NCBI GenBank assembly: GCA_026461395.1
Contig: JAPJNA010000066.1
Coordinates: forward strand, 1-43,821
Length of the DNA: 43,821 nucleotides
Direction of reading: 5' to 3'
Source: Chthoniobacterales bacterium
Lineage (GTDB): Bacteria > Verrucomicrobiota > Verrucomicrobiia > Chthoniobacterales > UBA6821
Below the pieces are notes generated by a model. That model was given only the letters and a program-made list of their open reading frames with translations. It made no database searches and was not told the origin of the DNA. A program made the position numbers and the translations under genes. Below, piece by piece: positions 7,767 through 31,118 of this stretch (positions are counted from its first letter, which is position 1; every line of letters starts with the position of its first letter).

Positions 7767-8168
7767 CTAAAAATCTAATCCAGTCTGAAGATCTAGAGCC
7801 ATGAGGGGTACTCCCAGATCAGCATTCGAGAGAAGCAGCCTGTGATCAGGATCGGCCTCAACAGAGCAACCCTCGATCAGTGACAACTCCCCTTCTCCAA
7901 GGTCCAGGTGAAGAATCGTAATGATCTTCCTCTCCACATCCCAGAGGGCTCCGAGCCTCTCCTCGGAGACACCTAGATTCCTCAGATCCCTGACCTTCCT
8001 GATGAAGGTCGTGTAGCATTCAGGATACTGCTCAAGCACAGGAAGTCCGAAGCGCTTCCGCATGCGGCTGATCCAGAGAGCCGGCCGACCGAGCTTTATT
8101 GAGAGTTCTGAATTATCCACAGTGATGGAGGGGATGAAGGAGATGTTTATGGGGAAGGAGGGGTGCAT
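7767..8168 (-). CDS. Protein of unknown function, middle of a zero-gap gene chain
   Basis: A 133-residue soluble protein (MHPSFPINISFIPSITVDNS at its start) without signal peptide or membrane segment. Its second half looks like a small beta-rich domain (KIITILHLDLGEGELSLIEG). Its ATG touches the TAA of the upstream gene (TAAATG) and its own TAG touches the GTG of the downstream small gene, so the three are almost certainly co-translated. I recognise no family. Confidence 0.65.
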   Translation of the reverse strand: MHPSFPINISFIPSITVDNSELSIKLGRPALWISRMRKRFGLPVLEQYPECYTTFIRKVRDLRNLGVSEERLGALWDVERKIITILHLDLGEGELSLIEGCSVEADPDHRLLLSNADLGVPLMALDLQTGLDF

Positions 8169-8528
8169 TTACCCCTTTTTCCCAAACTCTTTCTTGTACT
8201 CGTGAATCTGCTTTCGGTTTTCCCAAATCAGTTCTGCTACCAGATCGCGGAGTTCTTCCTTGAGGGCTTCATCATTGTCCGTTTTGGCCGTCTGCCAGAC
8301 CCCGCTGATGCCTGGTGTTTCCCCACCCCATTCCTCTCCCTCGATGACGAGGTGATCCGATCGCTCAGCCAGATCCTGAAACCGCTCAAACTCACACAGG
8401 TAGTACTGGTCCCAGATTTTATCCAGGCCGGCCCAATCCAGTAGTTCCTGGGAAACATCGTCGTCAGCCGAGGCGATCTCTTCCCATCCATCGTCTTCCT
8501 CTCCCGAGATGTCTTTGGGGTCACTCAT
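8169..8528 (-). CDS. Small very acidic protein of unknown function
   Basis: A 119-residue acidic protein beginning MSDPKDISGEEDDGWEEIAS. I place the start at 8528 rather than at the upstream ATG (8576) because a clear ribosome site (AAAAGGAGAG) stands about 8 bp before it. Residues 1-45 are dominated by Asp and Glu; the rest is helical. It begins 44 bp after the transpeptidase-like gene ends and heads a chain of three abutting genes. No family recognised; it resembles a cytoplasmic partner or immunity-type protein, but that is only a guess from charge. Confidence 0.65.
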   Translation of the reverse strand: MSDPKDISGEEDDGWEEIASADDDVSQELLDWAGLDKIWDQYYLCEFERFQDLAERSDHLVIEGEEWGGETPGISGVWQTAKTDNDEALKEELRDLVAELIWENRKQIHEYKKEFGKKG

Positions 8529-8572: not shown

Positions 8573-9700
8573 TCAAAAACCCCTTTCACCCTCTTTGAGG
8601 GCTGAGATTTGAGTAGCAATGTCCGAGAAGATCGGAGCAGCTACTAATCCACCAAAGTTTTTCTCATGAGGAAGATCAGCTTCGTCCACAACCACGACCA
8701 CAACGTACTGGGGGTGATCCACAGGGAAGAAGCCCGCAAACATGGTCCAGTACTGATCTGGGAGATATCTGCCTTTGGTATAGACCGCCTGGGCCGTTCC
8801 CGTCTTTCCAGCCACAGTCACCCCTTCAACGTGGGCCAAGGGGGCAGTACCATCTGGGGAGACGGTTTCCTGTAGAGCATTTTTCACTCTGTTGGCTGTT
8901 CTCTTTGAGCAGACTCTGCGAACTACCTTGGGCCTCTCAACACCAATCACCGGACGCATGAGATTTCCTCCATTGGCAAGGGCACAATAGGCCATCGTGA
9001 GCTGGATGGGTGTGACAGCGACACTCTGACCAAAACCCATGCGCGCCTTAGTCAGCGCAATCCACTTGGAGGGAGGGTTCACGAGGCCTCTGCACTCGAG
9101 TGAAAGCGAGATCCCTGTTCTCTCCCCGAATCCAAATTTGCGGACGAACTGGTAGTAATCTTTGTCCTTCAGCATCAGGGCCATCTTGGACGCTCCGATG
9201 TTGCTGCTCTTGGCTAGGATCTCTTCAAGGGTGGCATCCCCCAGTGGCGAGTAATCCTTGATAATCTTTCCTCCGTAATAGAATCGTCCGTTCTCGCAGT
9301 AGATCTTGGTCTTTGGTGTGATGACGCCCTTCTCAAGAGCGGCGACAGCCACGACCGGCGTGAAGGTGCTTCCGGGCTCAAAGATTTTTGAGGTGGTCCA
9401 GAGATTGGGATCTGGTTTTCCTGTCCGTGGATTCTTTATCGCCGTGGGGGGCCAATAAGGCCAATCACTTATCGCAAGGATCTTCCCTGTCTTCGGCTCT
9501 GCAACGACTATTGAGATACCTTTGGGGTTGAGGGTTTTTCTGGCATCGGCCAACGCCTTATCCGTGATTCTCTGGATAGGCTGATTGCCGGGGTATGTCC
9601 TAGTCACTGTTTGAAGTGAGGGAGATACGCAGCCAACCAGTGCGATCATTGAGGCAAGTGTGAGTAAGCGAAAGGGCGTGGTTCTGGGTTTCATGATCAT
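8573..9700 (-). CDS. Penicillin-binding transpeptidase-like lipoprotein lacking the active-site lysine
   Basis: A 375-residue protein with the transpeptidase fold of class B penicillin-binding proteins (FtsI/PBP2 type), which cross-link peptidoglycan. An N-terminal signal ends in the lipobox LVGC (Cys24), so it should be lipid-anchored. The large N-terminal pedestal of FtsI is absent (family usually about 550-650 residues). Motifs: EPGSTFTP with Ser111, SSN at 165-167, and KTG at 299-301. The first motif should be S-x-x-K; Lys is replaced by Thr114 (codon ACG at 9359-9361). Without that lysine acylation is expected to fail, so it may be a scaffold or peptidoglycan-binding pseudoenzyme. Start could also be Met3. 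Confidence 0.85.
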   Translation of the reverse strand: MIMKPRTTPFRLLTLASMIALVGCVSPSLQTVTRTYPGNQPIQRITDKALADARKTLNPKGISIVVAEPKTGKILAISDWPYWPPTAIKNPRTGKPDPNLWTTSKIFEPGSTFTPVVAVAALEKGVITPKTKIYCENGRFYYGGKIIKDYSPLGDATLEEILAKSSNIGASKMALMLKDKDYYQFVRKFGFGERTGISLSLECRGLVNPPSKWIALTKARMGFGQSVAVTPIQLTMAYCALANGGNLMRPVIGVERPKVVRRVCSKRTANRVKNALQETVSPDGTAPLAHVEGVTVAGKTGTAQAVYTKGRYLPDQYWTMFAGFFPVDHPQYVVVVVVDEADLPHEKNFGGLVAAPIFSDIATQISALKEGERGF

Positions 9701-9752: not shown

Positions 9753-10463
9753 TCAACCCCAGCAACTGCTCTCAGGCCATGGGGTGCCTTTGGGGACGAT
9801 GCGGGCAAGCTTGCGGTAATCCTCTCTGAGGTAGCCCGGCATGAGTTCCAGATTCTGTTTCAACTCCTTTTGGGAGTTCTGCTGTGAGAAGGCGATTGCC
9901 CCCATGATCCAATCGATCTCCATGGAACAAATGATGCCTCCGGCAAAGTCAGGGTCGCAGTGCCATTCCCCATCCTTCACCATGAGGATCTCGAGCATGA
10001 AGGCGTGAACAAGGCGATAGCCAGCTGACTTGATGGTGTCTCCCTTCACCCGAGGAGCCCAGGCGATGACATCGTGGCTGGGGCCCATGCCCTCGGCGTT
10101 CTCGTCATCGGAGACCGTCCGAGTCCAGAGGATGTAGTAACCGGGTACTCTAGTATCTATGTAGAAGTTGGCTGTCGCCGGGATGGGAAAGCAGGATCCG
10201 AGGAGATTCGGGTGGTAGATGAAGCCCCAATAGTGAACCCGGTTGGACTGCCAATAGGGGAGCTCCTCGTGGAAGGTATTCTTCGAGACATGGTAGACAG
10301 GCTGGCCGTCGATAATCCGGTAAGGCTCCTGCTCATCCGAGCGAGTCGGGGTTAGCGTGGGTTCCCCATTTGGGCCTGATCCCATGATAAAGACCTGACC
10401 CATGATATTCTGATTGATCGCCATCTTCATCATGGCGTTCTTGCCTTTCGGGGACTTCTTCAT
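9753..10463 (-). CDS. Protein of unknown function coupled to triple-repeat lipoprotein
   Basis: A 236-residue soluble protein without a clear signal sequence. It is rich in aromatic residues and Pro, with HYWGFIYHP and a central YYILWTRTVSDDENAEGM segment. No known motif seen. Its ATG overlaps the TGA of the upstream lipoprotein gene (ATGA), so the two are translated together. A 52 bp gap then separates it from the transpeptidase-like lipoprotein gene, so all may form one minus-strand transcript starting upstream of 11776. Confidence 0.7.
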   Translation of the reverse strand: MKKSPKGKNAMMKMAINQNIMGQVFIMGSGPNGEPTLTPTRSDEQEPYRIIDGQPVYHVSKNTFHEELPYWQSNRVHYWGFIYHPNLLGSCFPIPATANFYIDTRVPGYYILWTRTVSDDENAEGMGPSHDVIAWAPRVKGDTIKSAGYRLVHAFMLEILMVKDGEWHCDPDFAGGIICSMEIDWIMGAIAFSQQNSQKELKQNLELMPGYLREDYRKLARIVPKGTPWPESSCWG

Positions 10464-11776
10464 GATTTGGCGCTTAGCTTCTGCTTTTCTGCCGCCAACT
10501 CTCTCTTCAACTTCTTTAATCCAGTCGCGGTGAAAACCCGCAGCTCATTGCTGTTGTTCATAAGCGCGTAGTAACGATAATCAAATGTGTTGAAGTAGGA
10601 CTTTTTAGGGCTGGAGTGCTCATCGACAAACCAAGCTCGTCCCTGTGAATTGAGAGCCAAAGTTGCGGAGACCCAGTGGTCGGTGAACTTCCGCTTCTTC
10701 TCGGAGATGTACTTGATCCTGCTGCATACTCCGTGGTCGAAGTTGGCAAGGACTTGGACATTGCCGTTCTTGTAGATTCTCGCCCCCTTGTCTTTTTTAA
10801 TTGGCTTTCCTAAAAACTTATTCATTTCCTCCTCAGTCTGGCCGAGCCATGCACCAGCGCAGGGATGGAGTACAGATAGTATTGAGGGATAGGGAGGTGT
10901 TTTTTTACCAGCCGATTGCCTGAGCTCTCTATAACGAGCATCCGTATCGACAAACAAACCTCTCCCGTCACTGCATGCATGATATTTGCCCTTTAAAGTC
11001 TGATACCACACTTTAGGAGGCTTGGACTTAGCATTTACGATCCAGGCCAGCCCCTTCGAGTTATCATACAGAGCACCGGAAACCCAGCATTCGGAAAGCT
11101 TCTTGTGATGTCCGGCAAAATAACAAACCGAGTCACAGATCCCAGCATTGTAGTGAACGATGACCTCTTCACATCCATCGAAGTAGCTCTTGGCTCCATC
11201 TTTCATTGAGGCCGTAGGCTGTCCGTAGTTTTTGGATATTTTTACCTCAGTATCCCCAAGGTCTGCACCTGCATGATCGGGTCTGAAAATGCATTCAGGC
11301 AGCTCATCCACGAGAAAGGTTTTACCTGGCTGATGGATTGCTTTCTGGAAGAAAGCGTCCGTATCAACCATCAACTGGTTCCCTTTGCTGACAAAGGCAT
11401 GATATTTTCCATCCTGTGAGCGATAAGCTCTGCGGCCCGAGGTTGAGCTCTCTTCCAGAACCCAGGGTGTACCTTTCGAGTTCAGACCGAGGACTGAAGA
11501 AAGCCAGGGGTCGGTGATCTTCTTTTTGAACGTGTAGTAGAAGAGCGAGTCGGCTTTTCCTGCCTGGAAATGCGCCTGCACTTCATTGCCCTGACTGTCA
11601 TGAAAGAGATCATACCCATTCATGTAGTGGGCAGTAGGGGGGCCAAGCTCCTTGGTGATCTGAGAGTGGGACTGGCCGAGGGCTGCAGTCTTATGCTGGG
11701 TGCACCTATCTGCCAAGGAAGCACATCCGGTCAATGGCAATGCAAGGGTGAGGAGCAAGAAGAAGCGGGTATTCAT
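10460..11776 (-). CDS. Lipoprotein with three tandem SmpA/BLIP-like repeats
   Basis: I start at 11776 (MNTRFFLLLTLALPLTGCAS), giving 438 residues with a signal peptide and lipobox LTGC; the longer frame adds 19 residues that spoil the signal. The mature protein has three copies of a module of about 120 residues. Each runs from a G-x-T/S-x-x-x-x-x-x-x-x-G-x-P opening (ALGQSHSQITKELGPPTA; LGDTEVKISKNYGQPTA; LGQTEEEMNKFLGKPIK) through a W-V-S-x-x-L-x-x-N-S-x-G centre to a Y-x-A...VDTDA-like end. The opening resembles small outer-membrane BamE/SmpA-like folds, which is inference. It is probably periplasmic and membrane-anchored. ATGA overlap links it to the next gene. Confidence 0.75.
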   Translation of the reverse strand: MNTRFFLLLTLALPLTGCASLADRCTQHKTAALGQSHSQITKELGPPTAHYMNGYDLFHDSQGNEVQAHFQAGKADSLFYYTFKKKITDPWLSSVLGLNSKGTPWVLEESSTSGRRAYRSQDGKYHAFVSKGNQLMVDTDAFFQKAIHQPGKTFLVDELPECIFRPDHAGADLGDTEVKISKNYGQPTASMKDGAKSYFDGCEEVIVHYNAGICDSVCYFAGHHKKLSECWVSGALYDNSKGLAWIVNAKSKPPKVWYQTLKGKYHACSDGRGLFVDTDARYRELRQSAGKKTPPYPSILSVLHPCAGAWLGQTEEEMNKFLGKPIKKDKGARIYKNGNVQVLANFDHGVCSRIKYISEKKRKFTDHWVSATLALNSQGRAWFVDEHSSPKKSYFNTFDYRYYALMNNSNELRVFTATGLKKLKRELAAEKQKLSAKS

Positions 11777-11830
11777 GAATTGGTAATTTGGAGGAAGGCC
11801 TTCTGGGATGAGTTTACCCCTAGGGCTACG

Positions 11831-11861
11831 CACCTGATTCCCTTTGTTTTGAGATCAGGTG
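11831..11861 (-). promoter_or_regulatory. Leader hairpin upstream of triple-repeat lipoprotein
   Basis: An 8 bp perfect stem CACCTGAT / ATCAGGTG (11831-11838, 11854-11861) with a 15-base loop lies 55 bp upstream of the lipoprotein start and 25 bp after the preceding gene's stop. It may be a weak terminator of the upstream gene or a leader element; no T-run is present. Confidence 0.35.
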
Positions 11862-11885: not shown

Positions 11886-12419
11886 TTAGTTCAGAGCAAC
11901 AAGATGTTTCCTCATGCCGAGAGGAATCTGGTCTAAGGTGCAGACCCTGAGTCCATGTGAATGACCCACAGAGGCAGTCTGGTTGAAGGTGGCGATCACT
12001 GAATCGTCGAGTCTCCACATAGCACCTGTGGCGGGATCGACAATCAGCATGCCGATAATGATGCCGCCGAAGAGCAGATTGCCGAAATACCACCCGTTGA
12101 TGGATGCATTGATGGGGACGGTCTGGGTTACTCCCTTGCGTGTGAACTCAACTACATACTTGGCGGGTTGGAAGTAGCCGTTGGAGGAGTTGAGGGTGAC
12201 CGTGGCTGGAGTAGTTCCTGTCGACATTGCCATGCCGTTGGCTTTCTTGAGTGTGAAGCAGGCACCTGGAGGATTGCTGGAGATGGTGACCGGGTAGGAG
12301 GACTTGCTAACAATGCTGGCACAGGCCGTCATTCCGAGGCAGGAGCCTCCGATGACAACTTGGGCTAAGGATCCTCGCATGAAGGCGAGGAGTGATGGTG
12401 TACGGGTGTGTGTTTTCAT
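11886..12419 (-). CDS. Small lipoprotein, PEGA-like, with C-terminal hydrophobic hairpin
   Basis: A 177-residue protein with a long N-terminal signal ending in the lipobox MTAC (Cys32). A beta-rich region follows with the PEGA-like phrase YPVTISSNPPGACFTLKKAN, then a glycine-rich hydrophobic segment NLLFGGIIIGMLIVDPATGA near residue 115. This architecture recurs in bacterial envelope lipoproteins of unknown role. It probably sits in the outer or inner membrane facing the periplasm. It is on the minus strand with the other envelope genes, and a strong hairpin (12443-12463) separates it from the gene upstream. Confidence 0.72.
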   Translation of the reverse strand: MKTHTRTPSLLAFMRGSLAQVVIGGSCLGMTACASIVSKSSYPVTISSNPPGACFTLKKANGMAMSTGTTPATVTLNSSNGYFQPAKYVVEFTRKGVTQTVPINASINGWYFGNLLFGGIIIGMLIVDPATGAMWRLDDSVIATFNQTASVGHSHGLRVCTLDQIPLGMRKHLVALN

Positions 12420-12476: not shown

Positions 12477-12941
12477 TCAGGGTGATTCACCTGTATTGTG
12501 CCCCCTGACAAACCGGGTAATGGCAAAGCAGGTCTCAGTAATCCGCCTCCTCATATACTCTTCCTTGTCATCGATAGAGGGATCCCATTCTGGATCACTC
12601 GGCCATACCATTTGCTCGTACAGCTCCCAGTCACTGAGACCCGAGTGCTGATCGTAGTTGTAAAAGACACTCGCTGCGCTCGCCCAATAATATTCCCAGA
12701 ATCCCTCTAGCCCCGGACCGATACGGTATTCTTCAACCCATTTGCAGAAGCCCTCGTAGTTGGAAGCAGCTCCCTCACGCTCCTCTGTGGCCGGCATGAC
12801 CTCATCGCAGAGATCGCCCAGAATAGAGGCTGCGGTGACTAGGAACTCACGAAGGGTTGAGGCCCTGGTGAGGATGCAATGGGCATCTGAAGCCAACTCA
12901 GCTTCGGTAAAAAACTCATTCACAGTTGAGGATCCTACCAT
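12477..12941 (-). CDS. Protein of unknown function, acidic, tryptophan-rich
   Basis: A 154-residue soluble acidic helical protein (MVGSSTVNEFFTEAELASDA onward) with clustered aromatics around residues 75-105 (FWEYYWASAASVFYNY). No motif or family recognised. It is divergent from the Sel1-repeat gene, with only 48 bp between the two starts, so their promoters must overlap or be shared. Confidence 0.65.
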   Translation of the reverse strand: MVGSSTVNEFFTEAELASDAHCILTRASTLREFLVTAASILGDLCDEVMPATEEREGAASNYEGFCKWVEEYRIGPGLEGFWEYYWASAASVFYNYDQHSGLSDWELYEQMVWPSDPEWDPSIDDKEEYMRRRITETCFAITRFVRGHNTGESP

Positions 12942-16551: not shown

Positions 16552-16803
16552 ATGCACCACTTCATCCTCGCTCAATCCACATCACTCGACGGCGCTTTAT
16601 CCCAAGGACTAGGGATCATTGCAAAGTTCCTCTACATCATCGCGGTCATTGTCATCGCCCATGGCGGATGGCAGGTCCGCAGTGGCAATGCCGACATGGG
16701 CAAGATGTCGATTGTGGGAGGACTTCTCCTTGGTCTCTCGGTCCTGATCGCGCAGGCGCTCTTCAATGCGGGCGGCATGCCCACCATCAGCGTGGGACAA
16801 TGA
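16552..16803 (+). CDS. virB2: VirB2/TrbC-like pilin subunit
   Basis: An 83-residue protein with two hydrophobic segments (about 20-42 and 50-72) around a short polar turn RSGNADMGK, the layout of VirB2/TrbC major pilins after processing. The start MHHFILAQSTSLDGALSQGL is chosen because the longer frame would run through the operator. The N-terminal signal is unusually short. It begins the secretion operon and its TGA overlaps the virB3 ATG (ATGA). In the family this protein is inserted in the inner membrane and extracted to form the pilus. Confidence 0.8.
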   Translation: MHHFILAQSTSLDGALSQGLGIIAKFLYIIAVIVIAHGGWQVRSGNADMGKMSIVGGLLLGLSVLIAQALFNAGGMPTISVGQ

Positions 16804-17129
16804 GCCGGGGCGTGATTCCCACCCATGCGGGTGATGACAGCGACGGGAAAATCTGGGGTGTCGAAGGGATCAACATCCTCTTCCTGCTCGGAAGCGGGAT
16901 GATCGGCCTCGGGCTCGCGCTGATGCTCTCGCACAGTCATGACCCGGCAAGCTGCGTAGTGATCGGAGCCATGCCGTTTGCGGTAACGGCTCTCTACATC
17001 TTCACCCTCCGTCAGGGGAAGCCGAAGTCCTTCGACACGGACCTGCTCGAAAGCCTCCTCTGCGGAAGCGGATGGACGGCACCGCGCAAGCAACACCGCA
17101 ACCCCCTCCATACCCATGCAGGCTCCTAA
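16800..17129 (+). CDS. virB3: VirB3/TrbD-like inner-membrane protein
   Basis: A 109-residue protein starting MSRGVIPTHAG. Two hydrophobic segments lie close together (INILFLLGSGMIGLGLALML about 25-44; CVVIGAMPFAVTALYIFTL about 52-70), the hallmark of VirB3/TrbD, which works with the VirB4 ATPase in pilus assembly. Its start overlaps virB2 by ATGA and its end overlaps virB4 by 14 bp, so translation is coupled. The basic tail is short. The family call rests on topology and gene order more than residue identity. Confidence 0.75.
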   Translation: MSRGVIPTHAGDDSDGKIWGVEGINILFLLGSGMIGLGLALMLSHSHDPASCVVIGAMPFAVTALYIFTLRQGKPKSFDTDLLESLLCGSGWTAPRKQHRNPLHTHAGS

Positions 17130-19818
17130 CGGCTGGATCTCCCACGATCTGCTGATCTGGAACGAACTCGATAGCCGTGGAGCCGTCTCCAAGGGGTATG
17201 TGATCGATGCTCCCGATCTGCGGCACGCAAGCGAACATACGCTCGATGGCTTCTACGAGTCTGTCCGACAGTTCCTGCATTCACTGGATGAATCAACCAG
17301 ATGCCAAATCCGATGGTCGGTCGATTCCGATTACCGAGATGAGCTGATCGCCTACAAGGAAGTGACCGACGAGCGGTGTGATCCTGCGTCTTGGTCAGCA
17401 ATCACACGCAACGAGCGCTTCAATCGCTACTGGAAGGCAATGCAGTCCGGGGGACTGCGCCGAGAAAAGCTCCTGCTCTTCTTATCCAAGAAGATCGATG
17501 CCGATCCTCCATCGTCCCCTTCCAGGAAGGGCCTGGAGGAGCACTACAACCGACTCCTCTTCCAATATAACGAGGCCTTCTCCCAGCACGGGAGGGTGAT
17601 TGCCTCTCTCTTTGATGGGCATGGCTGCCGGGTGACAGCGATGGGGACGGAGGATCTCTATCGGCATTACGCGACCTTCTTCAATCCCTCCTACCTACGC
17701 CGGGATGGCTATGATCCGATCGGGCAGTTCCGTGAGGAGGAAACCATCCACCAGAACTGCTGGCACCAAGGGGTACAGGCTGGGAAGAACTTCGGGTTCT
17801 ACTCGGATGGCTTCTACCACAATCTTGTAATCCTCAAACGCCGTCCGCAGAAGACGAGGAGGGGCATCTTTTGGGCACTGACCTCGCTTCCTTTCCTCGA
17901 CTACGCGATCACGGTCAATCTTTACCCCCAGAACGTCCGCAGGGAGATCGACAAAGCGGAGAAGTCGCTTGAACGGGTACGAGGGGACTACGCGGCGGAG
18001 GGAAAACATTCGCTTTTAACTTCCAAGGGAGTGAAGGAGGAGCGCATCCGCAACCTCGCCCAAGGCGATACGGTTCCCTTTCTCTATGACTATGTGGTTC
18101 ATGTATGGGACGCGACCGAGGAGGGTCTCGTCTCCAAGACACGGCAAATCGAAACCGCCTTCGGCCAGATGGAGGATGCCCAATGTTGGACGAGCAATCT
18201 CTCCTCGGCGGCAACGACAAAGAACATCTGGTATCAAACGTGGCCGGGATGGCTCTGGGGGAAATACACCCACCATGCCGACAGCGGCCTCGATGAATGG
18301 CTGGCTGACCTGCTCCCCTTCTCCTCAACCTTCACAGGGCATCTGGAGGGAGCGGAGGCACTTTACGACGGCTCCAATCGGAACCTTGTGGGGGTAAGGA
18401 ACTTTGTTTCAGGAACGCCGCAACTTGCGGTTCTGCTTGGGATGACGAGGGCCGGGAAGTCGGCCTTCATGTGCGATCTGTTATCGCAGACGGATCCCTA
18501 CTACGACTTCACACTGATCGTGGAGGAGGGACTCTCTTACGGGATCTGGACTCAGGCCCAAGGTTTGGGGAGCACTCCGATCATCATTCAGCCCGATGGG
18601 GATCTCTGCCTGAATTACCTCGATACCCAGGGAGCCCCGCTAACCAATCTACAGATCACGACGGCAGCGGCACTGGTGGCCAAGATGGCGGGAAATCCAG
18701 CCGATGAAGATCGCAGGAACCTGCGACTTGCTCAGATCACCCAGTACATCGAGCAGCTCTACACGGATCGCTTCGAGGAGTGGATCTCTGAGGATGGTAC
18801 CCGGCTCGACATGGTGGCCCGCCATGCCATGGCGGTCCTGGAGTACAAATCCAGTCACATGCCTCTCTCGGCTACTTTTCTAGAGGCCTGGACGGAGCTG
18901 AAGCACACGGCGACCGATGAAGAACGGCAGGAGCTTCTAGCGGCGCCCAAGGGGGAGGATGTGTCGCGCTTCATCAAGTCGCATGACATGGAGCGCCATG
19001 TCCGCAACACGGCATTCGCGTTCTTCGGGCCTACGGACTACCCAACCCATGACATGCTCCAGCAGATGATGCTGGTGGCTCCCTTTGCGGAGCATAATCG
19101 GGATGAGATCAATCATCTGGCGACACTTCTTGCCCCGTGGAATGAGCAGAGACTTCTGTGCGGACACTCGACGCTTTCCATGACCGGACGGGTGGCTCAC
19201 TTCGATCTGACCTACATCCCTGAGTCGAACAAGCAATTGAAGGAACTGGCTGGGTTCCTCATCGCGAACTACGGACGCCAACACATCATCACGCTGCCCC
19301 GAGGAGCTCGGAAGCGGGTGATCTTTGAGGAGGTGGCTCGAACCTTGGACGTGCCGGGTGGTGAGCAGCTAGTGAGCGAGTTCTATGCCCAGCTCTCGAA
19401 GTTCTCCACATGGATCATCTCGATTGTCCAGCAGTACAGCCGCTTCCAGAACTCGGGGATCCGTCCGATCGTCTTCGGCAACGCCAAGCAGTTCTTCTTC
19501 ACCCGCATGAATGATCGCAGGGACATCGAGGATGTTGCACGGGATATCGACCTGTCGGATGCGACCAAGGAAGCGGTCTCCCGCTATCCGCTGCCGGAGC
19601 ATTTGCCGGAGCACAACAAGTATGCGGCCCTGACCTACTACCACCTCGATGTGCAGCAGGCACGGTGCGGAACGATCCACAACCGGGTCTCTCCCGAGAT
19701 GCTTTTCTGCTCCTCCTCGACGGGACAGGACTTTGATGAGCGCAGCAGAAAGCTCCGCAGTCACGACGACATCGTGGCCGGCATCCTCCAAGAAACCACC
19801 CAACCCCAACACAAATGA
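17116..19818 (+). CDS. virB4: VirB4/TrbE-like secretion ATPase
   Basis: A 900-residue ATPase that should power pilus assembly and DNA transfer at the inner membrane. The N-terminal half (to about 400) is the divergent VirB4 N-domain. Walker A is GMTRAGKS (442-449). Walker B is RKRVIFEE with Glu738-Glu739 where most have Asp-Glu. Further family features follow: STWIISIVQQYSRF and NAKQFFFTRMND near 760-800. Size is slightly above the usual 780-870. It overlaps virB3 by 14 bp and the next lipoprotein gene by ATGA. Confidence 0.88.
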   Translation: MQAPNGWISHDLLIWNELDSRGAVSKGYVIDAPDLRHASEHTLDGFYESVRQFLHSLDESTRCQIRWSVDSDYRDELIAYKEVTDERCDPASWSAITRNERFNRYWKAMQSGGLRREKLLLFLSKKIDADPPSSPSRKGLEEHYNRLLFQYNEAFSQHGRVIASLFDGHGCRVTAMGTEDLYRHYATFFNPSYLRRDGYDPIGQFREEETIHQNCWHQGVQAGKNFGFYSDGFYHNLVILKRRPQKTRRGIFWALTSLPFLDYAITVNLYPQNVRREIDKAEKSLERVRGDYAAEGKHSLLTSKGVKEERIRNLAQGDTVPFLYDYVVHVWDATEEGLVSKTRQIETAFGQMEDAQCWTSNLSSAATTKNIWYQTWPGWLWGKYTHHADSGLDEWLADLLPFSSTFTGHLEGAEALYDGSNRNLVGVRNFVSGTPQLAVLLGMTRAGKSAFMCDLLSQTDPYYDFTLIVEEGLSYGIWTQAQGLGSTPIIIQPDGDLCLNYLDTQGAPLTNLQITTAAALVAKMAGNPADEDRRNLRLAQITQYIEQLYTDRFEEWISEDGTRLDMVARHAMAVLEYKSSHMPLSATFLEAWTELKHTATDEERQELLAAPKGEDVSRFIKSHDMERHVRNTAFAFFGPTDYPTHDMLQQMMLVAPFAEHNRDEINHLATLLAPWNEQRLLCGHSTLSMTGRVAHFDLTYIPESNKQLKELAGFLIANYGRQHIITLPRGARKRVIFEEVARTLDVPGGEQLVSEFYAQLSKFSTWIISIVQQYSRFQNSGIRPIVFGNAKQFFFTRMNDRRDIEDVARDIDLSDATKEAVSRYPLPEHLPEHNKYAALTYYHLDVQQARCGTIHNRVSPEMLFCSSSTGQDFDERSRKLRSHDDIVAGILQETTQPQHK

Positions 19819-20066
19819 AACAACCAATCCTTCTGATCGGCCTCTGTGCCCTTGCGGGCTGTGCCAGTCGATCCCAATTCCAGAAAGGCTACGAGAAAGG
19901 CGCTGCCGATGCGGTGAAGCGCCAGTACTGGATCGAGCAGAGCCTCCAAAAGCCTGGGAAGAACCCGGAGCGCCATCTCTCGGTTTACAAGCTGACTGTC
20001 CCTCCCGATCCCGATGCCAAGGTGAAGACAGTCCCCTATGAGATCGCGATTCCGATCTGCAACTAG
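19815..20066 (+). CDS. Small lipoprotein of the secretion operon (VirB7/TrbK-like by position)
   Basis: An 83-residue protein with a short signal and lipobox LAGC (Cys16), then a charged helical stretch FQKGYEKGAADAVKRQYWIE and a Pro-rich tail. Small lipoproteins (VirB7, TrbK) occur in most type IV secretion operons, either as core-complex parts or entry-exclusion proteins. Sequence alone does not say which this is. ATGA overlap with virB4 and a 2 bp gap to the virB5-like gene put it firmly in the operon. Confidence 0.75.
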   Translation: MKQPILLIGLCALAGCASRSQFQKGYEKGAADAVKRQYWIEQSLQKPGKNPERHLSVYKLTVPPDPDAKVKTVPYEIAIPICN

Positions 20067-20068
20067 CC

Positions 20069-20929
20069 ATGAAAAAGAAGTACCTACTCCTTCTATCCCT
20101 GTTGGTAACTCTGCCCGCCAATGCGCAATGGGTTGTGAGCGATCCCGTGGTCGAACAAGCGACCGTGGCGAAGAACGCCTTCGACCAGTTGAAGTATGCC
20201 TGGGAGCAGACACAATGGGCTCAGCAGCTTTCGAGCCTTGCCCAGACGCTCGACACAGTGAAGAGCCAACTGGAGGTGGCCCAGCAGGTGAAGCAGGCCA
20301 TCGGTAATCCGGCGGCGATTTCGGGTATGATCCAGAGCGGGCTTTTCTCGTCGTATTTGAGGAACTCGGGGATCACCGACACGCTGAGCGACCTCTCCAA
20401 AATCACCCAGCAGGGAGCCAAGCAATCCGTGGCCATCCAGCAGATGTACCGGCCGATCGATATGAATGCCTACAAGCGGATCGAGACGCCGTTTGAGGGG
20501 GCGGCCTCCTTCCGAGATGAGGGAGATCCCCTCAAGCAGTTCCGGGCGGTGGAGAACGCTTACTCCAACTTCCAAGACATGCTGAAGCAGGCGCAGGGCA
20601 AGAGGAAGGAACTCAACATCAAGATCGCGGCGCTGAACGATCAGCTCAAGAACGCGCAAGACGATGCCGAGGTGCAGAAACTTCAGGGATCGCTTACCAC
20701 GGCCCAGACCTCGCTGAAGGATCTCGACGGGATCATGGATGGTGCAGAGCACCAGGTGAAGTTGCTCCACATGCTCAATGAGAACCGGGCAGCTACCGAG
20801 GCGATCGCTGCCGAGGAAATCAGTCGGGCACGCAACCGGGAGAGTGCCCAGATGGGTGCCGATGCGGAATCGTCTGCCACCAAGTCTGGCTCCCAGGGCA
20901 ACGAGGGCTCTTTGCCTCCGGGATTTTGA
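20069..20929 (+). CDS. virB5: VirB5/TrbJ-like periplasmic pilus protein
   Basis: A 286-residue protein with a cleavable signal peptide (MKKKYLLLLSLLVTLPANAQ) and a long alpha-helical, coiled-coil-rich body. Helices lie at about 30-95 with regular Gln/Leu heptads and at about 165-235 (LNIKIAALNDQLKNAQDDAE). It has the disordered Ser/Gly-rich tail usual for TrbJ/VirB5, the minor pilus-tip adhesin class. A 3 bp gap leads to the virB6-like gene. Family placement rests on signal, helical pattern and gene order. Confidence 0.78.
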   Translation: MKKKYLLLLSLLVTLPANAQWVVSDPVVEQATVAKNAFDQLKYAWEQTQWAQQLSSLAQTLDTVKSQLEVAQQVKQAIGNPAAISGMIQSGLFSSYLRNSGITDTLSDLSKITQQGAKQSVAIQQMYRPIDMNAYKRIETPFEGAASFRDEGDPLKQFRAVENAYSNFQDMLKQAQGKRKELNIKIAALNDQLKNAQDDAEVQKLQGSLTTAQTSLKDLDGIMDGAEHQVKLLHMLNENRAATEAIAAEEISRARNRESAQMGADAESSATKSGSQGNEGSLPPGF

Positions 20930-20932
20930 TCC

Positions 20933-22144
20933 ATGATGCCGGCCCTCTCCAATCTGTTCGATTCGGCCAATCAGATCCGGATGCTGATGATGCCCTTCGC
21001 CTTCGTGCTCTGCATCTTGGGGATAGGGGAAATGGGCTTGAAGGCGGGATCGGATCCCAGAGCCCTCCTCGGAACGATCCTTAAGGTGACGATCATCGTA
21101 GCCCTGATCGCAGGCTACCCGACGATCATGAACAAAGGGATGGAAGCGTTTCAGGACATGCGCCAGAAGTTCACGAATGCGCAGGATGCCAAGTTCATCC
21201 AGTTGCTGACTTCGAGGATTCAGAACCAGCCGTCCGATTCGTGGACGGATCTTGGGAAGATCGTCCCGGCTGCGGTCGGGTACTTCTTTCAGGGTATCGG
21301 GCGCTTCATGATGGTGGTGCTCAACTTTTTTCAGCAGTTCGCCATCGCCGGGATGATAGCGATCTCGCCCCTTCTGCTGGGGTTCCTCTTCTTCTCACCG
21401 ACCCAATCGTTCGGGGTTCACTTCGGGGTGACCTCCTTCACTGTGATGCTCTGGTATCTAGGGATTTGCCTGGTCGACATCGTGATTGTCGCGATCAGCG
21501 ACACCCTTTTCATCCCGATCACCTCGGGAGGGATCGTCCAAGTGGCTCAGAACGCGATCGTGGTTCAGAACTGGCTCCTCTTCCCGTTCATCATGGCCTT
21601 TGCCTCGATCATCACGGTCTTCTTCTATCTCTCGGTGCCCTTTGTGGCGGGGGCGATCATGAAGGGAGCCAGTGGCACGACCTCGGCCCTGACTGCCGGT
21701 ATCAGCAATACGCTCCAAGCAGCCGGACTGGCGGCTGGAGCAGGAGCCTCCGTTGCAGGAGCTGCAGCTACCTTCGGAGGATCAGCTGCGGCTCAAGCGG
21801 CTGTTGCGTCGGGAAAAGCTGCGGCAGGTGCCGCAAGTACCTCTTCCCGTATTGCCAATGACCTTGGAGGAGGTGCTGCGGAAAGCGCAGGAGGGAGTGT
21901 CCCAGCTCCGCCGGAATCAGAAAGCAGTGGAGGCATGGTCTTTAACCCTGCAAATCCGTCCATGGTGGCCCAGCAGACCTCTCCCGGCTCCTTCTCCGTA
22001 ACCGATCAGTCCAAGGGAACGGTTTCCCATCACAAGGGAAGTGTTTCAACCCCGCAGGCTGCCCAAGCGGCATTCAACTCCCATGCCTCGAAGGCAAAAC
22101 CCTCTTCGTCCCCTTCTTCCAAACCCGACAACACCAACCCATGA
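20933..22144 (+). CDS. virB6: VirB6/TrbL-like polytopic membrane channel protein
   Basis: A 403-residue protein with about six hydrophobic segments between residues 18 and 245 (MLMMPFAFVLCILGIGEMG; ILKVTIIVALIAGYPTIM; FAIAGMIAISPLLLGFLFF; others to about 240). Then come Ala/Gly-rich stretches (about 255-300) and a Ser/Pro-rich hydrophilic tail, as in TrbL/VirB6. The protein forms part of the inner-membrane channel for DNA or protein substrates. ATGA overlap with the next gene. The long low-complexity tail is a TrbL trait. Confidence 0.83.
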   Translation: MMPALSNLFDSANQIRMLMMPFAFVLCILGIGEMGLKAGSDPRALLGTILKVTIIVALIAGYPTIMNKGMEAFQDMRQKFTNAQDAKFIQLLTSRIQNQPSDSWTDLGKIVPAAVGYFFQGIGRFMMVVLNFFQQFAIAGMIAISPLLLGFLFFSPTQSFGVHFGVTSFTVMLWYLGICLVDIVIVAISDTLFIPITSGGIVQVAQNAIVVQNWLLFPFIMAFASIITVFFYLSVPFVAGAIMKGASGTTSALTAGISNTLQAAGLAAGAGASVAGAAATFGGSAAAQAAVASGKAAAGAASTSSRIANDLGGGAAESAGGSVPAPPESESSGGMVFNPANPSMVAQQTSPGSFSVTDQSKGTVSHHKGSVSTPQAAQAAFNSHASKAKPSSSPSSKPDNTNP

Positions 22145-22773
22145 AGCTCACCGCTGTCACCTCCATCACCAACAACATCGTCGCCGCCAGATTCTGGATG
22201 GCGATTGCCCTCATCTGTGCGGCTCTGGCCGTCACCTCTCCCTACTTGACCATCAAGGCCATGAAACAGAAGGAGAAGGTCGTCATCCTCGATCAGGGAG
22301 GTACCCTGATCTATTCGCCGCTCTTGGGTTTTGAAGAAGCGGGCGAGCTTCATGCTTACCATGTTCGGCTAGCCTGTCTGGCGCTGCTTCAACGCAATCC
22401 GATCGGGCCCGATCTGCCAGACCTGCTCAAGCGGATGTATCTGGAAGACCCCGCTCGCAAGAAAGCGATCGCCCTCTACAAAAAACAGAATCCTGAATTT
22501 AAGGAGAAGGAGATCCACCAGAAGGTGGAGGTTTCCAAGCTCGATATCCTCGACACCCGCAAAATGAAGGATGGGGCGGGAGCCTCCTATGAAGCGGTCG
22601 ATGTTGAGGCTGAGGGTAACCTCGTTCGCACCGGGACGCTCAACAAGATCGAGTTCCGGGAGGTGGCGAAGTTCAAGATCACCTTCTTCTTCGTCCGCAA
22701 TCCCGACCTCATGGGGAATGGGCGACTTCCCTTGGTCGTGCAGGACTTCAAGTACGAGGAGCGCCCTCTGTAG
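22141..22773 (+). CDS. virB8: VirB8-like (TrbF-type) inner-membrane protein
   Basis: A 210-residue protein with a short cytoplasmic N-terminus, one membrane segment (FWMAIALICAALAVTSPYLT, about 18-37) and a periplasmic alpha/beta domain. This is the bitopic layout of VirB8/TrbF/TraE proteins that bridge the inner-membrane and core complexes. The C-terminal part has EFREVAKFKITFFFVRNPD followed by a final strand, as the family does. It is the last gene before the Fic insertion. The call is by topology and position; sequence identity to textbook VirB8 looks low. Confidence 0.7.
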   Translation: MKLTAVTSITNNIVAARFWMAIALICAALAVTSPYLTIKAMKQKEKVVILDQGGTLIYSPLLGFEEAGELHAYHVRLACLALLQRNPIGPDLPDLLKRMYLEDPARKKAIALYKKQNPEFKEKEIHQKVEVSKLDILDTRKMKDGAGASYEAVDVEAEGNLVRTGTLNKIEFREVAKFKITFFFVRNPDLMGNGRLPLVVQDFKYEERPL

Positions 22774-22778
22774 GAAGG

Positions 22779-22861
22779 TTTGCGGAGAAAAGCAGGGTTA
22801 TTTACCGCAAAACTGCGGAGATTCTTGATTTGCGGAGATTGCGGGCGATAATCTCCGCAAA
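22779..22861 (+). promoter_or_regulatory. fic promoter with repeated TGCGGAGA operator
   Basis: The word TTTGCGGAGA or its core appears at 22779-22788, 22814-22821 and 22829-22838, and inverted at 22852-22861. The last two form a 12 bp inverted repeat (22829-22840 / 22850-22861) with a 9 bp spacer. A promoter TTGATT (22825-22830), 16 bp, GATAAT (22847-22852) lies under that repeat. A small hairpin CCGCA-AAAC-TGCGG is at 22805-22818. The layout strongly suggests repression, perhaps by the Fic protein's own C-terminal DNA-binding domain. Confidence 0.7.
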
Positions 22862-22879
22862 GATACGGCGAATATCCCC

Positions 22880-24013
22880 ATGACCTATATCCATCAACGT
22901 AAAGAGTGGCCCGAGTTCCGATGGAACGAGGCGAGGCTGCTGCCACTTTTGGCAAAGGTCAGGCATCAGCAGGGGCGGCTGCTTGGACAAATGGAGGGAC
23001 TCGGTTTCCATCTCCGTGGTGAGGCCAACCTTGCAAGCCTCACCAGCGAGGTGATCGGGTCCAGCGCGATCGAGGGGGAAAAACTCGATGCGGAGGAGGT
23101 GCGCTCCTCGATTGCGAGACGCCTGGGGATTGTTGATGCGGGGGTGGCCCCTGTGAATCGTCACGTCGAGGGGGTTGTTGAGATGATGCTCGATGCTACT
23201 CGCAAGTTCGGCGAAGCACTCACAGCCGAGAGACTCTTTTCATGGCATGCGGCTTTATTTCCAAGCGGGCGTAGTGGGATGAGACGCATCACCACGGGAG
23301 CATGGCGTACCGGGGAGGATGGCCCCATGCAGGTGGTCTCCGGAGCGATGGGGCGGGAAAATGTTCATTTTGAGGCCCCGGATGCAGACCTCCTTGATGA
23401 GGAGGTCTGCCGCTTCCTGGAATGGTTCGAGAGAAGCACGACGATTGATCCTGTTCTCAAGGCTGGCATTGCACATTTCTGGTTTGTGACGATCCACCCG
23501 TTTGAAGACGGCAATGGCCGTATTGCCAGGGCCATTGCAGAGTTGGCGCTCGCAAGGGCGGACGGCGTGGCGGAGCGTTTTTACAGCATGTCCACGCAGA
23601 TCGAGAAGGAGCGGAAGCAGTATTACGATTCGCTGGAAAGCAGCCAGCGCGGAACCATCGACATCACGCTGTGGCTGGAGTGGTTCCTGGGTTGTCTGGA
23701 CAGAGCGCTGGAACATGCCCAGATAAGCCTTCGTGGAATCCTGCATAAGGCGAGGGTCTGGGAGCGCATCAACCAAGACGGCCCGGTGAATGAACGCCAG
23801 CATGCGGTGATCAACCGTCTGCTCGACGGGTTTGAGGGAAAACTTTCCACCTCCAAGTATGCAAAGATTGCGAAGTGCTCTGCGGACACTGCGCTTCGCG
23901 ACATCAACGACCTGCTGGTACGAGGCCTGATGCTTCGGGAAGATGGGGCAGGAAGAAGCACCGGCTATCGTCTCGCGGAGCCGGTTGCCGAGAAGACTCG
24001 AAAAGAATTGTAG
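22880..24013 (+). CDS. fic: Fic-family AMP-transferase with winged-helix domain
   Basis: A 377-residue protein. The N-terminal domain (about 1-95, DUF4172-like) carries the inhibitory helix motif SSAIEG (Ser61, Glu65, Gly66), which blocks the active site until relieved. The Fic core contains HPFEDGNGRIAR starting at His206, a complete H-x-F-x-[D/E]-G-N-G-R-x-x-R motif, so AMPylation activity is expected. The C-terminal part (about 310-370) looks like a winged helix (LSTSKYAKIAKCSADTALRD). It sits between virB8 and virB9 on its own promoter. Roles could be toxin, secreted effector or regulator; its target is unknown. Confidence 0.9.
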   Translation: MTYIHQRKEWPEFRWNEARLLPLLAKVRHQQGRLLGQMEGLGFHLRGEANLASLTSEVIGSSAIEGEKLDAEEVRSSIARRLGIVDAGVAPVNRHVEGVVEMMLDATRKFGEALTAERLFSWHAALFPSGRSGMRRITTGAWRTGEDGPMQVVSGAMGRENVHFEAPDADLLDEEVCRFLEWFERSTTIDPVLKAGIAHFWFVTIHPFEDGNGRIARAIAELALARADGVAERFYSMSTQIEKERKQYYDSLESSQRGTIDITLWLEWFLGCLDRALEHAQISLRGILHKARVWERINQDGPVNERQHAVINRLLDGFEGKLSTSKYAKIAKCSADTALRDINDLLVRGLMLREDGAGRSTGYRLAEPVAEKTRKEL

Positions 24014-24073
24014 GCCGAATCGTTTCTACAGACGGTCCGCCTCAGATCAGCTCTAAGTAAAAAATCATTAAGT

Positions 24074-24091
24074 TGCTCCCAACCGGGAGCA
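24074..24091. promoter_or_regulatory. Palindromic operator, copy 3, before virB9
   Basis: TGCTCCC-AACC-GGGAGCA, 33 bp before the virB9 start. It is identical to copy 2, including the TT before and the CACCA after. It gives the second half of the secretion operon the same control site as the first half. Confidence 0.7.
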
Positions 24092-24124
24092 CCAGAGGTG
24101 TGATTTTCTGAAAGTCTCGGGGGC

Positions 24125-24994
24125 ATGAAGCTCCCAATCCTCGCTGCGATCCTGTGCATGGGCTCGCTCGCCCACGCCGGATCCATTGTCCAGAAGCCAC
24201 TCGATGAGTTCGTCATCTACGATATCCCGGTGGCCTCGAAGACGGGAACCACGACCGTCATGTTCCCTTCGGAAATCTCCGGGCTCTATGCCAAGTCGAT
24301 TGCCGTTCAGGATCAGGAGAATGCCGGGTTCCTGATCTCGTTCACTCCAGGGAACTTCTACTTCACGATCCGGGCGCTGAAGAAGGATGCGGAGGATCAC
24401 CTGACGGTGATCTTCAACCGGAAGGCCTATGTGCTCCACCTCACGGCCTCGGAGCACCCCTTCTATGACGTGACCTTCTACGAGGAGGATCGCAGCGGCA
24501 AGGACGGCAGGATCAATGTGGTGCCCGAGCGGATCCTCTCGCTCATGGATAAGGCCAAGGCCTACCCGCTGCTGCTGAAGGCGGAGCATGATGCCTTGGC
24601 CGGGGTGCTCCATACCTCGCCGGGGATCACCAATTACTACAAGGACTTCACGATCCGGATCCTCGATGTCTGGAGATTCGAGGAGGAGGACACACTCGTT
24701 TTTCGCCTGGAGCTGGAGAACGACTCCAACGAGGCGATCTACTACAAGCCGCAGGATCTGGCTGTTCGGCTGGATGAGCGGATCTACACGGAGTCCCTTG
24801 CCGATGCCTCCGGGGTGATGCCGCCGAAGTCGGTGACCCCTGCATTCTTTGCCATCACGGGGAATGGGCAGGGTGGCCGTAATCACCTCGCCCCCGACAA
24901 CAAATGGAATGTCCTCGTGGTTAGGGCAGAACCTCATCAAGCGGTGAGGAGTGCCAGTGCTAGTGGTACCTCCAACAAGAACGTCGTCCGATGA
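24125..24994 (+). CDS. virB9: VirB9/TrbG-like core-complex protein
   Basis: A 289-residue periplasmic protein with a signal peptide (MKLPILAAILCMGSLAHAGS) and a beta-rich body of the VirB9/TrbG/CagX type. The N-domain (about 25-120) has TVMFPSEISGLYAKSIAVQD and the C-domain (about 180-270) has the typical YYKDFTIRILDVWRFEEEDT segment. In the family it binds VirB10 and a lipoprotein to form the outer-membrane core ring. It overlaps virB10 by ATGA. It starts the second transcription unit of the secretion genes, after operator copy 3. Confidence 0.8.
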   Translation: MKLPILAAILCMGSLAHAGSIVQKPLDEFVIYDIPVASKTGTTTVMFPSEISGLYAKSIAVQDQENAGFLISFTPGNFYFTIRALKKDAEDHLTVIFNRKAYVLHLTASEHPFYDVTFYEEDRSGKDGRINVVPERILSLMDKAKAYPLLLKAEHDALAGVLHTSPGITNYYKDFTIRILDVWRFEEEDTLVFRLELENDSNEAIYYKPQDLAVRLDERIYTESLADASGVMPPKSVTPAFFAITGNGQGGRNHLAPDNKWNVLVVRAEPHQAVRSASASGTSNKNVVR

Positions 24995-25980
24995 ACCTCC
25001 GCGATTTCAAGACGGAGCTACTCAACAAGCCGACCGGGCGGCTGATCCTCTTCCTGTTTGCAGGAGGGGTGATTCTGGCCTTCATCCTGTTGCATCGAGG
25101 CGGAGGGAAGGTGAGCAAGGTAACCCCGGACATTCCGGTGCAGGCCACAGCAGCCAAGGGGTACACGATTGACGAGGGGATCCCTGACATCCAACCGGTG
25201 AGGCCGACGCCCACCCCGAAGCCTGCTGCCGTGCAGACTGATGGAAGACCCCTTGCGGTGAAGACCCCGCCACCGATTCCGCAGGCGATCTTTGCCATGA
25301 AGGAGAACTCACTGAGTGAGAACTACCTTCCCTATGGACGACTCCTGAAATGCGAGTTGGTAAATACGGTGGACTCCATCAACCTGGATACACCGATCAT
25401 CGGCCTGATTACTGAGGATGTCTGGAGGGATGGACGACTCATCATCCCGGCAGGGACGGAGGTTCACGGGGTTGCCAAGACCAGTGCCGCTAGAGATCGG
25501 GTAGGCTCCGAGCATCAGTGGATGCTCGTCTTCCAGAACGGGAAGCAACTCCCCCTAGCTGGCACGGTGCTGGACTACGCGCCTGATGAGAAGGAGCCAG
25601 GGCGCTGGAAAGATACTGATGGATCGGCGGGACTACGGGGCTATCAGATCGCCTCCGACAAGTATGCGGAGGCGAAGGCGATGTTGGCCTCGATGGTTGC
25701 CGCAGGGGCGGGAGCTTTCCCAGGGGTGACCAATATTATTTCCCCGCTGACGGGGGGAGCCACGCAGCTTCAGGGAGGAGGAATGACACAGGCCCTATCT
25801 GCAGGAATCCAAGCCGGTGGACAGCTCTATGCCCAGCGGCTCCTCGATGGGCTGCAGAAGAACCCCTACTACATCCGCGTTCCGGGCGGGACGCTCTTCT
25901 ACCTCTACGTCACTCAGACAGTCGACCTTAACAAGGCTGCTCGGGGACTTGCCGCAAATAACAACCCATCCGCCAAATGA
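24991..25980 (+). CDS. virB10: VirB10/TrbI-like core-complex protein
   Basis: A 329-residue protein with a short cytoplasmic N-terminus, one membrane helix (GRLILFLFAGGVILAFILLH, about 17-36), a Pro-rich periplasmic linker (PVRPTPTPKPAA near 69) and a C-terminal TrbI/VirB10 beta-barrel domain. The last has LPYGRLLKCELVNTVDSINL, PIIGLITEDV, then IPAGTEVHGV, all classic family phrases. It spans both membranes and senses ATPase energy in known systems. ATGA overlaps at both ends. A little short for the family (usually 370-450) because the linker is brief. Confidence 0.88.
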   Translation: MNLRDFKTELLNKPTGRLILFLFAGGVILAFILLHRGGGKVSKVTPDIPVQATAAKGYTIDEGIPDIQPVRPTPTPKPAAVQTDGRPLAVKTPPPIPQAIFAMKENSLSENYLPYGRLLKCELVNTVDSINLDTPIIGLITEDVWRDGRLIIPAGTEVHGVAKTSAARDRVGSEHQWMLVFQNGKQLPLAGTVLDYAPDEKEPGRWKDTDGSAGLRGYQIASDKYAEAKAMLASMVAAGAGAFPGVTNIISPLTGGATQLQGGGMTQALSAGIQAGGQLYAQRLLDGLQKNPYYIRVPGGTLFYLYVTQTVDLNKAARGLAANNNPSAK

Positions 25981-26657
25981 AGTACCTCCTCTGCATTCCA
26001 CTGATCTGCGCCGTCTCGGGCTGCGCCACACACAAAAACGTGAATCCCGAAAACTATCCTGCTGTTGCCGGAACCAGCGTTCCGCAGAGCACACTTTCCA
26101 GAGTCCGCACTTCTGAAGTCGTGAAATCCTATCCGACGGGAAGGTACACCGATCCTGACTTCCCGGACGATATGCATGAGCGGCACACACTCTACCGCAA
26201 GGAGCAGTCTGCCGATTGGAACTACAGGCCGGGAGGGCCGTATGCCTACCCGCTGGTCGTTTCTGATCCGACTCCCTCTTATTACGTCAAGACGGATGGG
26301 GATCAGCGTAACTCCCAGCAGAAGGCCTTTGCGGCGGCTCTGGAGGAACAGAACACCGCCATGAAGAAGCGGATCGAGTCGCTTCAGAAGGATTCGGACA
26401 AGGTGCCGATCCTTGAAAACCAGGTGAAGGATCTGAAGGAGCAGCTCGATGCCGAGCCCCTCGCATCACCTGCTCCCAAGAAACAGGACCCTTCGGAGGA
26501 AAAGCCCACAGGGTTTTCGGAGGCAGAGGATCCGCAGGGCGATCTTATTGCCGAGATGAAGCTCAATGATGAGCTCAACGGGGAACTTGATGCGCTGGAG
26601 GGAAGGCGGCGCTTGGTTCTGATGGATGCCGCTTTCCTCAACATCCTTACACCATGA
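25977..26657 (+). CDS. Conjugation-associated lipoprotein with coiled coil
   Basis: A 226-residue lipoprotein (signal ending VSGC, Cys16). The first half has the conserved-looking phrase RVRTSEVVKSYPTGRYTDPD followed by MHERHTLYRKE, which I associate with proteins encoded just after TrbI in several conjugation operons. The second half is a coiled coil (about 118-150) and an acidic Pro-rich linker. It is probably an envelope partner of the VirB9-VirB10 core. ATGA overlaps join it to virB10 and to the next small gene. Confidence 0.75.
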   Translation: MKYLLCIPLICAVSGCATHKNVNPENYPAVAGTSVPQSTLSRVRTSEVVKSYPTGRYTDPDFPDDMHERHTLYRKEQSADWNYRPGGPYAYPLVVSDPTPSYYVKTDGDQRNSQQKAFAAALEEQNTAMKKRIESLQKDSDKVPILENQVKDLKEQLDAEPLASPAPKKQDPSEEKPTGFSEAEDPQGDLIAEMKLNDELNGELDALEGRRRLVLMDAAFLNILTP

Positions 26658-27375: not shown

Positions 27376-27681
27376 ATGCATGAAGTAACCGAAGAGAAGG
27401 ATAGTGACGCCTTTGAGGGGGCTGCTCAGGCGGTCGTAATGATCAGTACATCTGAAGTCCCGAAAGGGGATCCGCCAGGTGTTCATCCTAGCGCAGAGTT
27501 CATCAGTTCAAAGGTCGCTGCGGCCTGGATGGGCCTGCCGCTCCGATCATTCCTTCAGTACGTCCAGATGGGTGAGCTTCCAAGTTACAAGATTGGTAAA
27601 CACCGGCTATTTCGGCGCAGTGAGCTTCTTAAGGCGATAGGAGCGACTCGAAGAGCTACCTGGGACGAGATCCTTCGGTGA
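27376..27681 (+). CDS. Excisionase-like helix-turn-helix protein
   Basis: A 101-residue protein. The first 45 residues are low in structure. Residues about 48-90 form a MerR/Xis-type winged helix-turn-helix: FISSKVAAAWMGLPLRSFLQ, then the wing LPSYKIGKHRLFRRSELL. Such proteins bend the ends of an integrated element and direct the integrase to excise it. The ATG at 27376 is preferred over a TTG two codons earlier. Its last 75 bp overlap the convergent integrase gene, and a terminator lies directly upstream, so it must have its own promoter or rely on read-through. Confidence 0.78.
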   Translation: MHEVTEEKDSDAFEGAAQAVVMISTSEVPKGDPPGVHPSAEFISSKVAAAWMGLPLRSFLQYVQMGELPSYKIGKHRLFRRSELLKAIGATRRATWDEILR

Positions 27682-29081: not shown

Positions 29082-29109
29082 ACGTGTTCGAATCCCGTTA
29101 GGGTGGCCA
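29082..29109 (+). other. Attachment site candidate: tRNA 3'-end-like sequence
   Basis: ACGTG-TTCGAAT-CCCGT-TAGGGTG-G-CCA reads as a T-stem, T-loop, acceptor strand, discriminator base and CCA of a tRNA. One stem pair is mismatched. No 5' half of a tRNA precedes it. Elements often integrate into tRNA 3' ends and leave such a fragment at the far side; the integrase starts 73 bp away. The intact tRNA would lie left of the window. The implied first base C is unusual for a tRNA, so the tRNA reading is not certain. Confidence 0.5.
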
Positions 29110-29227
29110 ACTTTGTTGGCAATCGCCGCAAGGCGAATTCGAACCCGTAGGGTTTGACTGCCATGCCGCGATCAGCGGCATTACTCTTTTCTGCAGGGAA
29201 ATTGCAGAGCCTGCCATTGGCAGGATC
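29092..29227. repeat. 136 bp hairpin-chain repeat, unit 1
   Basis: The unit starts with the 18 bp core ATCCCGTTAGGGTGGCCA and contains seven short stems in a row: CCC/GGG, GCCAAC/GTTGGC, TCGCC-GCAA-GGCGA, AACCC/GGGTT, ATGCCGC/GCGGCAT, TCTGCA/TGCAGA, CCTGCC/GGCAGG. It is followed without gap by unit 2. Confidence 0.85.
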
Positions 29228-31111: not shown

Positions 31112-31118
31112 AAAATAA

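Follow-up and report, generated by a model that had tools for sequence, protein, structure and literature searches.

Penicillin-binding proteins (PBPs) carry three motifs, SxxK, SxN and KTGT, as set out in PMC4810414. The locus described here raises the question of what becomes of a PBP-type transpeptidase domain when the lysine of the first motif has been replaced and the gene travels on a mobile element. The gene lies in a 43,821-nucleotide stretch of DNA (the window), contig C41 of a 2.03 Mb draft genome of a Chthoniobacterales bacterium that probably lives in freshwater. The original prediction had described its product as a lipid-anchored protein without a pedestal domain, which retained SSN, KTG and the acyl-accepting Ser111 and had Thr114 in place of the catalytic lysine; it was suggested to be a pseudoenzyme, perhaps used to seat the secretion apparatus. 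The coordinates of the gene, its motifs and its surroundings are collected in Table 1.

Table 1. The transpeptidase-like gene and the surrounding features of the window.
Feature	Position	Strand	Basis or remark
133-aa protein	7767..8168	-	Pfam match none; kept in G001 element copy
118-aa acidic protein, adjacent	8169..8525	-	truncated version of a 236-241 aa protein
Transpeptidase-like lipoprotein, S-x-x-T, 375 aa	8573..9700	-	ORF and translation; ATG start
KTG motif, residues 299-301	8798..8806	-	translation
SSN motif, residues 165-167	9200..9208	-	translation
Thr114 codon ACG, at place of catalytic Lys	9359..9361	-	codon
Ser111 codon AGC, acyl-acceptor position	9368..9370	-	codon; within EPGSTFT
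Predicted lipidated Cys24, lipobox L-V-G-C24 (LVGC)	9629..9631	-	motif by eye
236-aa protein	9753..10463	-	Pfam match none; in G010, missing from G001 element copy
457-aa predicted lipoprotein	10460..11833	-	same gene run
177-aa predicted lipoprotein	11886..12419	-	same gene run
154-aa acidic protein	12477..12941	-	first gene of run
T4SS genes: VirB4-like, T4SS/VirB5-like, TrbL/VirB6-like, TrbI/VirB10-like	16668..26657	+	Fic gene included
Tyrosine integrase of the element	27607..29019	-	
Four exact 18-bp repeat copies around HipA pair	29092..31632	.	likely attachment region beside hemB

The motifs and the Thr114 codon were confirmed by the open reading frame, the codons, the PF00905 match and the alignment. 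PF00905 (Transpeptidase) was the single Pfam domain of the window protein, covering residues 63-361 (model positions 2-297 of 299, E 1.7e-65). Among the features of class B PBPs, the domain itself, SxN and KTG were present and S-x-x-K was absent. A phmmer alignment with FtsI proteins of solved structure placed Thr114 opposite the lysine of S-x-x-K, and this column holds lysine in all 28 FtsI-type proteins of related genomes, as well as in the paralogue described below. The absence of the pedestal was likewise borne out: just 62 residues precede PF00905, 24 of them belonging to the signal and lipobox, leaving no space for such a domain, and the N-terminal transmembrane anchor of class B PBPs is missing as well. 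The lipid anchor is predicted from a lipobox motif recognised by eye. The residue after the lipobox cysteine (+2) is V, A or A, which under the E. coli rule would point to the outer membrane. Two AlphaFold models were made and neither was usable, the mean pLDDT for the window protein (32) being too low.

The closest relatives of the window protein are FtsI-type class B PBPs (PF00905; SpoVD/FtsI-type), with which it shares the whole transpeptidase domain, SSN, KTG and the EPGSTF sequence around the serine; it is 46-52% identical to the FtsI proteins of its own genus. It differs from them in the lysine-to-threonine replacement, the missing membrane helix and pedestal, the predicted lipoprotein signal and its status as mobile cargo. 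Orthologues were detected in two of the 16 genus genomes scanned, G002 (85% identical) and G010 (93%), which represent other species of the genus; the gene is thus present in three of 16 genus genomes, including that of the window. The three Thr proteins have identical SSN and KTG motifs, and the orthologues carry the lipoboxes LTGC and LVGC.

The genome of the window also encodes a lysine-bearing paralogue (G000:C30, L003/L049 3744-4766) of 340 aa and 66% identity. It resembles the window protein in being a short lipoprotein (lipobox FAGC) of the same clade with SSN and KTG, found in all four short proteins, and in lying on an integrase-bearing stretch beside defence genes, but it keeps S-x-x-K (STFK) and lacks the segment aligned to window residues 78-101. 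Threonine at this position was therefore shared by the two orthologues and not by the same-genome homologue, so that the outcome named as refuting the original prediction, lysine in all relatives, was seen in part only. The paralogue adjoins a type I restriction-modification (R-M) system and a SoFic-like protein, and the integrase of its stretch was recognised by 36% identity to that of the window. In an own-genome control, seven PF00905 matches comprised four with Lys and one with Thr (the window protein), while in the two weakest (C36, C47) the pattern found no S-x-x-K-type motif. Two C-terminal pieces of another short transpeptidase copy (L051, L052) were found in G015; in one of them (L051 209-649), the C-terminal end is fused in frame after an unrelated HTH-like sequence.

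A maximum-likelihood tree of 34 rows was computed with the S-x-x-K column masked and was rooted at the midpoint, because the pattern used to look for PBP-like outgroup rows found none to add. The three Thr proteins and the Lys paralogue formed one group (100/100), within which the Thr proteins alone formed another (100/99), and a 100/98 branch separated the short proteins, along with the 16 FtsI of the same genus, from the other rows. This placement derives the short protein from FtsI of this genus or of a close relative. The short clade arose within the FtsI radiation of the genus, losing the transmembrane helix and the pedestal and gaining a lipobox. The Thr stem was 0.48 long and the branch of the Lys paralogue 0.21. 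Of the columns conserved in 27 or all of the 28 FtsI, six were changed in the Thr clade and FtsI-like in the Lys paralogue (K114T, H151S, Y185F, G201L/F, I203C/S and S320M). One branch of the short clade then lost the lysine together with five further residues common to FtsI and the Lys paralogue.

The selection tests rest on the three Thr-clade sequences, one of them shortened by a contig end, and gave dN/dS values (NG86) of 0.43 for window/G002, 0.43 for window/G010 and 0.42 for G002/G010 (one-sided Fisher p versus neutrality of 1.7e-5, 0.0068 and 2.2e-4, respectively). Host FtsI values were several-fold lower (0.066-0.076), and two neighbouring genes of the element were also below the Thr gene (0.07 for w9753 and 0.15 for w10460). 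With dN/dS this far above the FtsI value of about 0.07, the Thr gene is under genuine but weak constraint. Changes inside the Thr clade affected 5 of 86 FtsI-invariant columns versus 32 of 249 elsewhere, so that the invariant columns were avoided only marginally (p = 0.0497). Synonymous divergence of the Thr gene (dS of 0.21 for window/G002 and 0.08 for window/G010) was well under that of FtsI in the same pairs (0.86 and 0.95), and the gene has therefore recently crossed species lines and moves laterally. The G010 protein was close to the window protein over its first 60 residues and to G002 beyond them, a switch that suggests recombination.

A residue regarded as essential for catalysis has thus been lost in a three-gene clade that has remained under purifying selection, weak as it is compared with FtsI, and in this respect the pseudoenzyme suggestion gained ground. 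We lean towards regarding the window protein as a pseudo-transpeptidase, one that probably binds stem peptides non-covalently without being acylated. The weak constraint, the five other changed FtsI-invariant residues and the long Thr stem speak against this reading. The main rival explanation, which is possible although we give it less weight, is that of a dispensable duplicate in slow decay, a near-neutral element cargo in which the lysine was lost once it was unneeded. This would fit the weak constraint relative to FtsI and the neighbouring genes, the disappearance of several FtsI-invariant residues, the relics in G015 and the patchy presence within the genus. Against it, the frames are intact in all three Thr copies (allowing for the one shortened by its contig), dN/dS is clearly below 1 following the loss of lysine, and every motif except the lysine is preserved.

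We consider it unlikely that the protein still acylates, with a migrated lysine, the KTG lysine or the SxN serine activating Ser111. The retention of Ser111, SSN and KTG is compatible with such chemistry, as are lysines fixed in the Thr clade at positions 89, 124 and 180, which are missing in the Lys paralogue and are K/R in <10% of the 28 FtsI. However, these lysines are not known to sit near Ser111, and the beta-lactamase literature regards the S-x-x-K lysine either as indispensable to acylation or as belonging to the acylation network (PMC6723624). With this lysine gone, Ser111 should stay unactivated, and acylation by stem peptide or beta-lactam at a useful rate would not be expected.

The T4SS genes, the tyrosine integrase and the repeats by hemB (identified by its ALAD domain) constitute an integrative conjugative element. 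The repeats comprise a 136-bp tandem repeat and one further copy 2.25 kb on; in G004, hemB directly follows the integrase, which makes the HipA pair look as if it had been inserted separately between attachment sites. Two tandem YkuD L,D-transpeptidase genes (32705-33268 and 33323-33976), about 66% alike as suggested by cross-matches, lie beside hemB and are both found in the G004 region. The Fic-domain gene (22880-24013) was present in the G001:C41, G004 and G008 copies of the element and missing from those of G000:C59 and G007.

Its position on the same element as the T4SS could make the transpeptidase-like protein a structural component of that system, in line with the proposed seating of the secretion apparatus. 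The distribution of the gene speaks strongly against this, and we regard such a role as very improbable. VirB4 relatives (94-100% identity) occurred in seven of 16 genus genomes, and just two of those seven have the Thr gene (draft genomes leave some room here), so that the constant association expected of a T4SS component was not observed; conversely, G002 carries the Thr gene although VirB4 gave no match there. Other copies of the element carry different genes in the slot. In the G004 copy, about 98% identical to window 16028-29381, a type I R-M system (HsdM, HsdS and a 1183-aa protein) replaces the transpeptidase genes; a second copy in the genome of the window (C59) has AbiEii/AbiEi at this place; and the G001:C124 copy retains w4108, w7767, w8169, w10460 and w13979 without the transpeptidase gene and w9753. 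The transpeptidase gene is therefore exchangeable cargo rather than a part of the secretion apparatus, and the seating proposal was abandoned.

Defence genes also lie beside the G002 copy, which adjoins a cytosine methyltransferase, an AAA protein with a PD-(D/E)XK partner, and Vsr; since such genes are common cargo, this neighbourhood is a hint only. In the window, a 1141-aa protein with RNase_H_2 and AAA_11/AAA_12 helicase domains and a UvrD-like protein (4108-7533 and 1115-2815) gave weak PADLOC matches (MkoA, NERD+UvrD) and are possible defence cargo near the transpeptidase genes. The 457-aa lipoprotein seemingly contains three related stretches of ~120 residues, as indicated by multiple tblastn matches to one region. 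The adjacent 118-aa protein keeps the MSxPKDIS start seen in G072 and has lost ~120 internal residues relative to the G001/G072 form. It is a doubtful functional partner, being truncated here and occurring without a short transpeptidase in G001, G005, G072 and G097. A shared family of small companions was also rejected: the 182-aa and 150-aa proteins beside the Lys copies match each other only and are unrelated to the 118-aa and 154-aa window proteins.

A sequencing or assembly error at codon 114 would require a single base (ACG versus AAG), but it is refuted by STFT and the identical ACG codon in both orthologues, hence in all three Thr-clade members found, which come from separately assembled genomes with differing synonymous backgrounds. 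None of the three copies has a frameshift or a true stop. In the public assembly, the end of the G010 contig (G010:C52, L010/L039), at which that copy ends early, carries GCTCTTCCGATCT, which makes a false stop codon. We take this sequence to be an Illumina adapter, and the apparent stop is thus an artefact.

The wider occurrence of the Thr form was assessed with the exact EPG-x-TFT pattern, which is blind to other kinds of lysine loss. In the order, 9 of 213 genomes matched, three through the window gene and its orthologues and six in non-PBP frames. The phylum sample gave 12 matches out of 387: one was this gene, another (G458) had the serine but in a non-PBP frame, and the remaining ten had Thr, Cys or a stop at the serine position, as judged by codons alone. 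A relative of the window protein was not found in the viral contigs scanned. By tblastn, 718 plasmid records and 52 phage records matched, all at <60% identity; the two annotated plasmid proteins that we examined were 540 and 556 aa in length and hence not short.

Under the pseudo-transpeptidase reading, an FtsI copy of the genus lost its membrane helix and pedestal and gained a lipoprotein signal, the short lipoprotein spread between species as integrative-element cargo, and in one branch the S-x-x-K lysine became threonine. As SxN and KTG remain, non-covalent binding of D-Ala-D-Ala stem peptides in the groove may still be possible. The most probable role is that of a lipid-anchored stem-peptide binder occupying or marking cell-wall sites, or competing with host FtsI. 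FtsI contacts its partners through the pedestal and the helix. The loss of both lowers the likelihood of a divisome scaffold and raises that of a stem-peptide binder or competitor.

The importance of this lysine for acylation is well established: when its counterpart in class A beta-lactamases is mutated to alanine, Michaelis complexes are trapped in non-covalent form (PMC6723624). PMC5656894 reports that catalytically dead PBP 2B (S309A) of B. subtilis still supports division, which, as proposed for the window protein, makes a transpeptidase protein useful without catalysis; PBP 2B (S309A) is, however, a full-length division protein mutated in the laboratory, and at the serine, whereas the window protein has lost the lysine. 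BlaR1/MecR1 likewise put a penicillin-recognising domain to non-catalytic use (PMC9834060), but these sensors are acylated via S-x-x-K and have a fused metalloprotease, and the window protein has neither. In a literature search covering titles and abstract openings, with most subscription papers outside its scope, we recognised no description of a natural PBP-family pseudoenzyme and found no literature combining pseudoenzyme, peptidoglycan and transpeptidase.

More speculatively, and with considerable doubt, the window protein could belong to a class of mobile pseudo-transpeptidases, that is, element-borne, FtsI-derived lipoproteins that protect the host or the element through acylation-free binding of stem peptides or of the host's division synthase. 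If so, they might block wall attack by phages or competitors, or modulate FtsI after transfer, and sharing a slot with the restriction-modification and abortive-infection genes of sister elements would be meaningful. The locus represents host division genes recruited as element cargo, and the Thr and Lys forms of one short lipoprotein in a single genome provide a natural pair for probing a non-chemical role of the transpeptidase domain.
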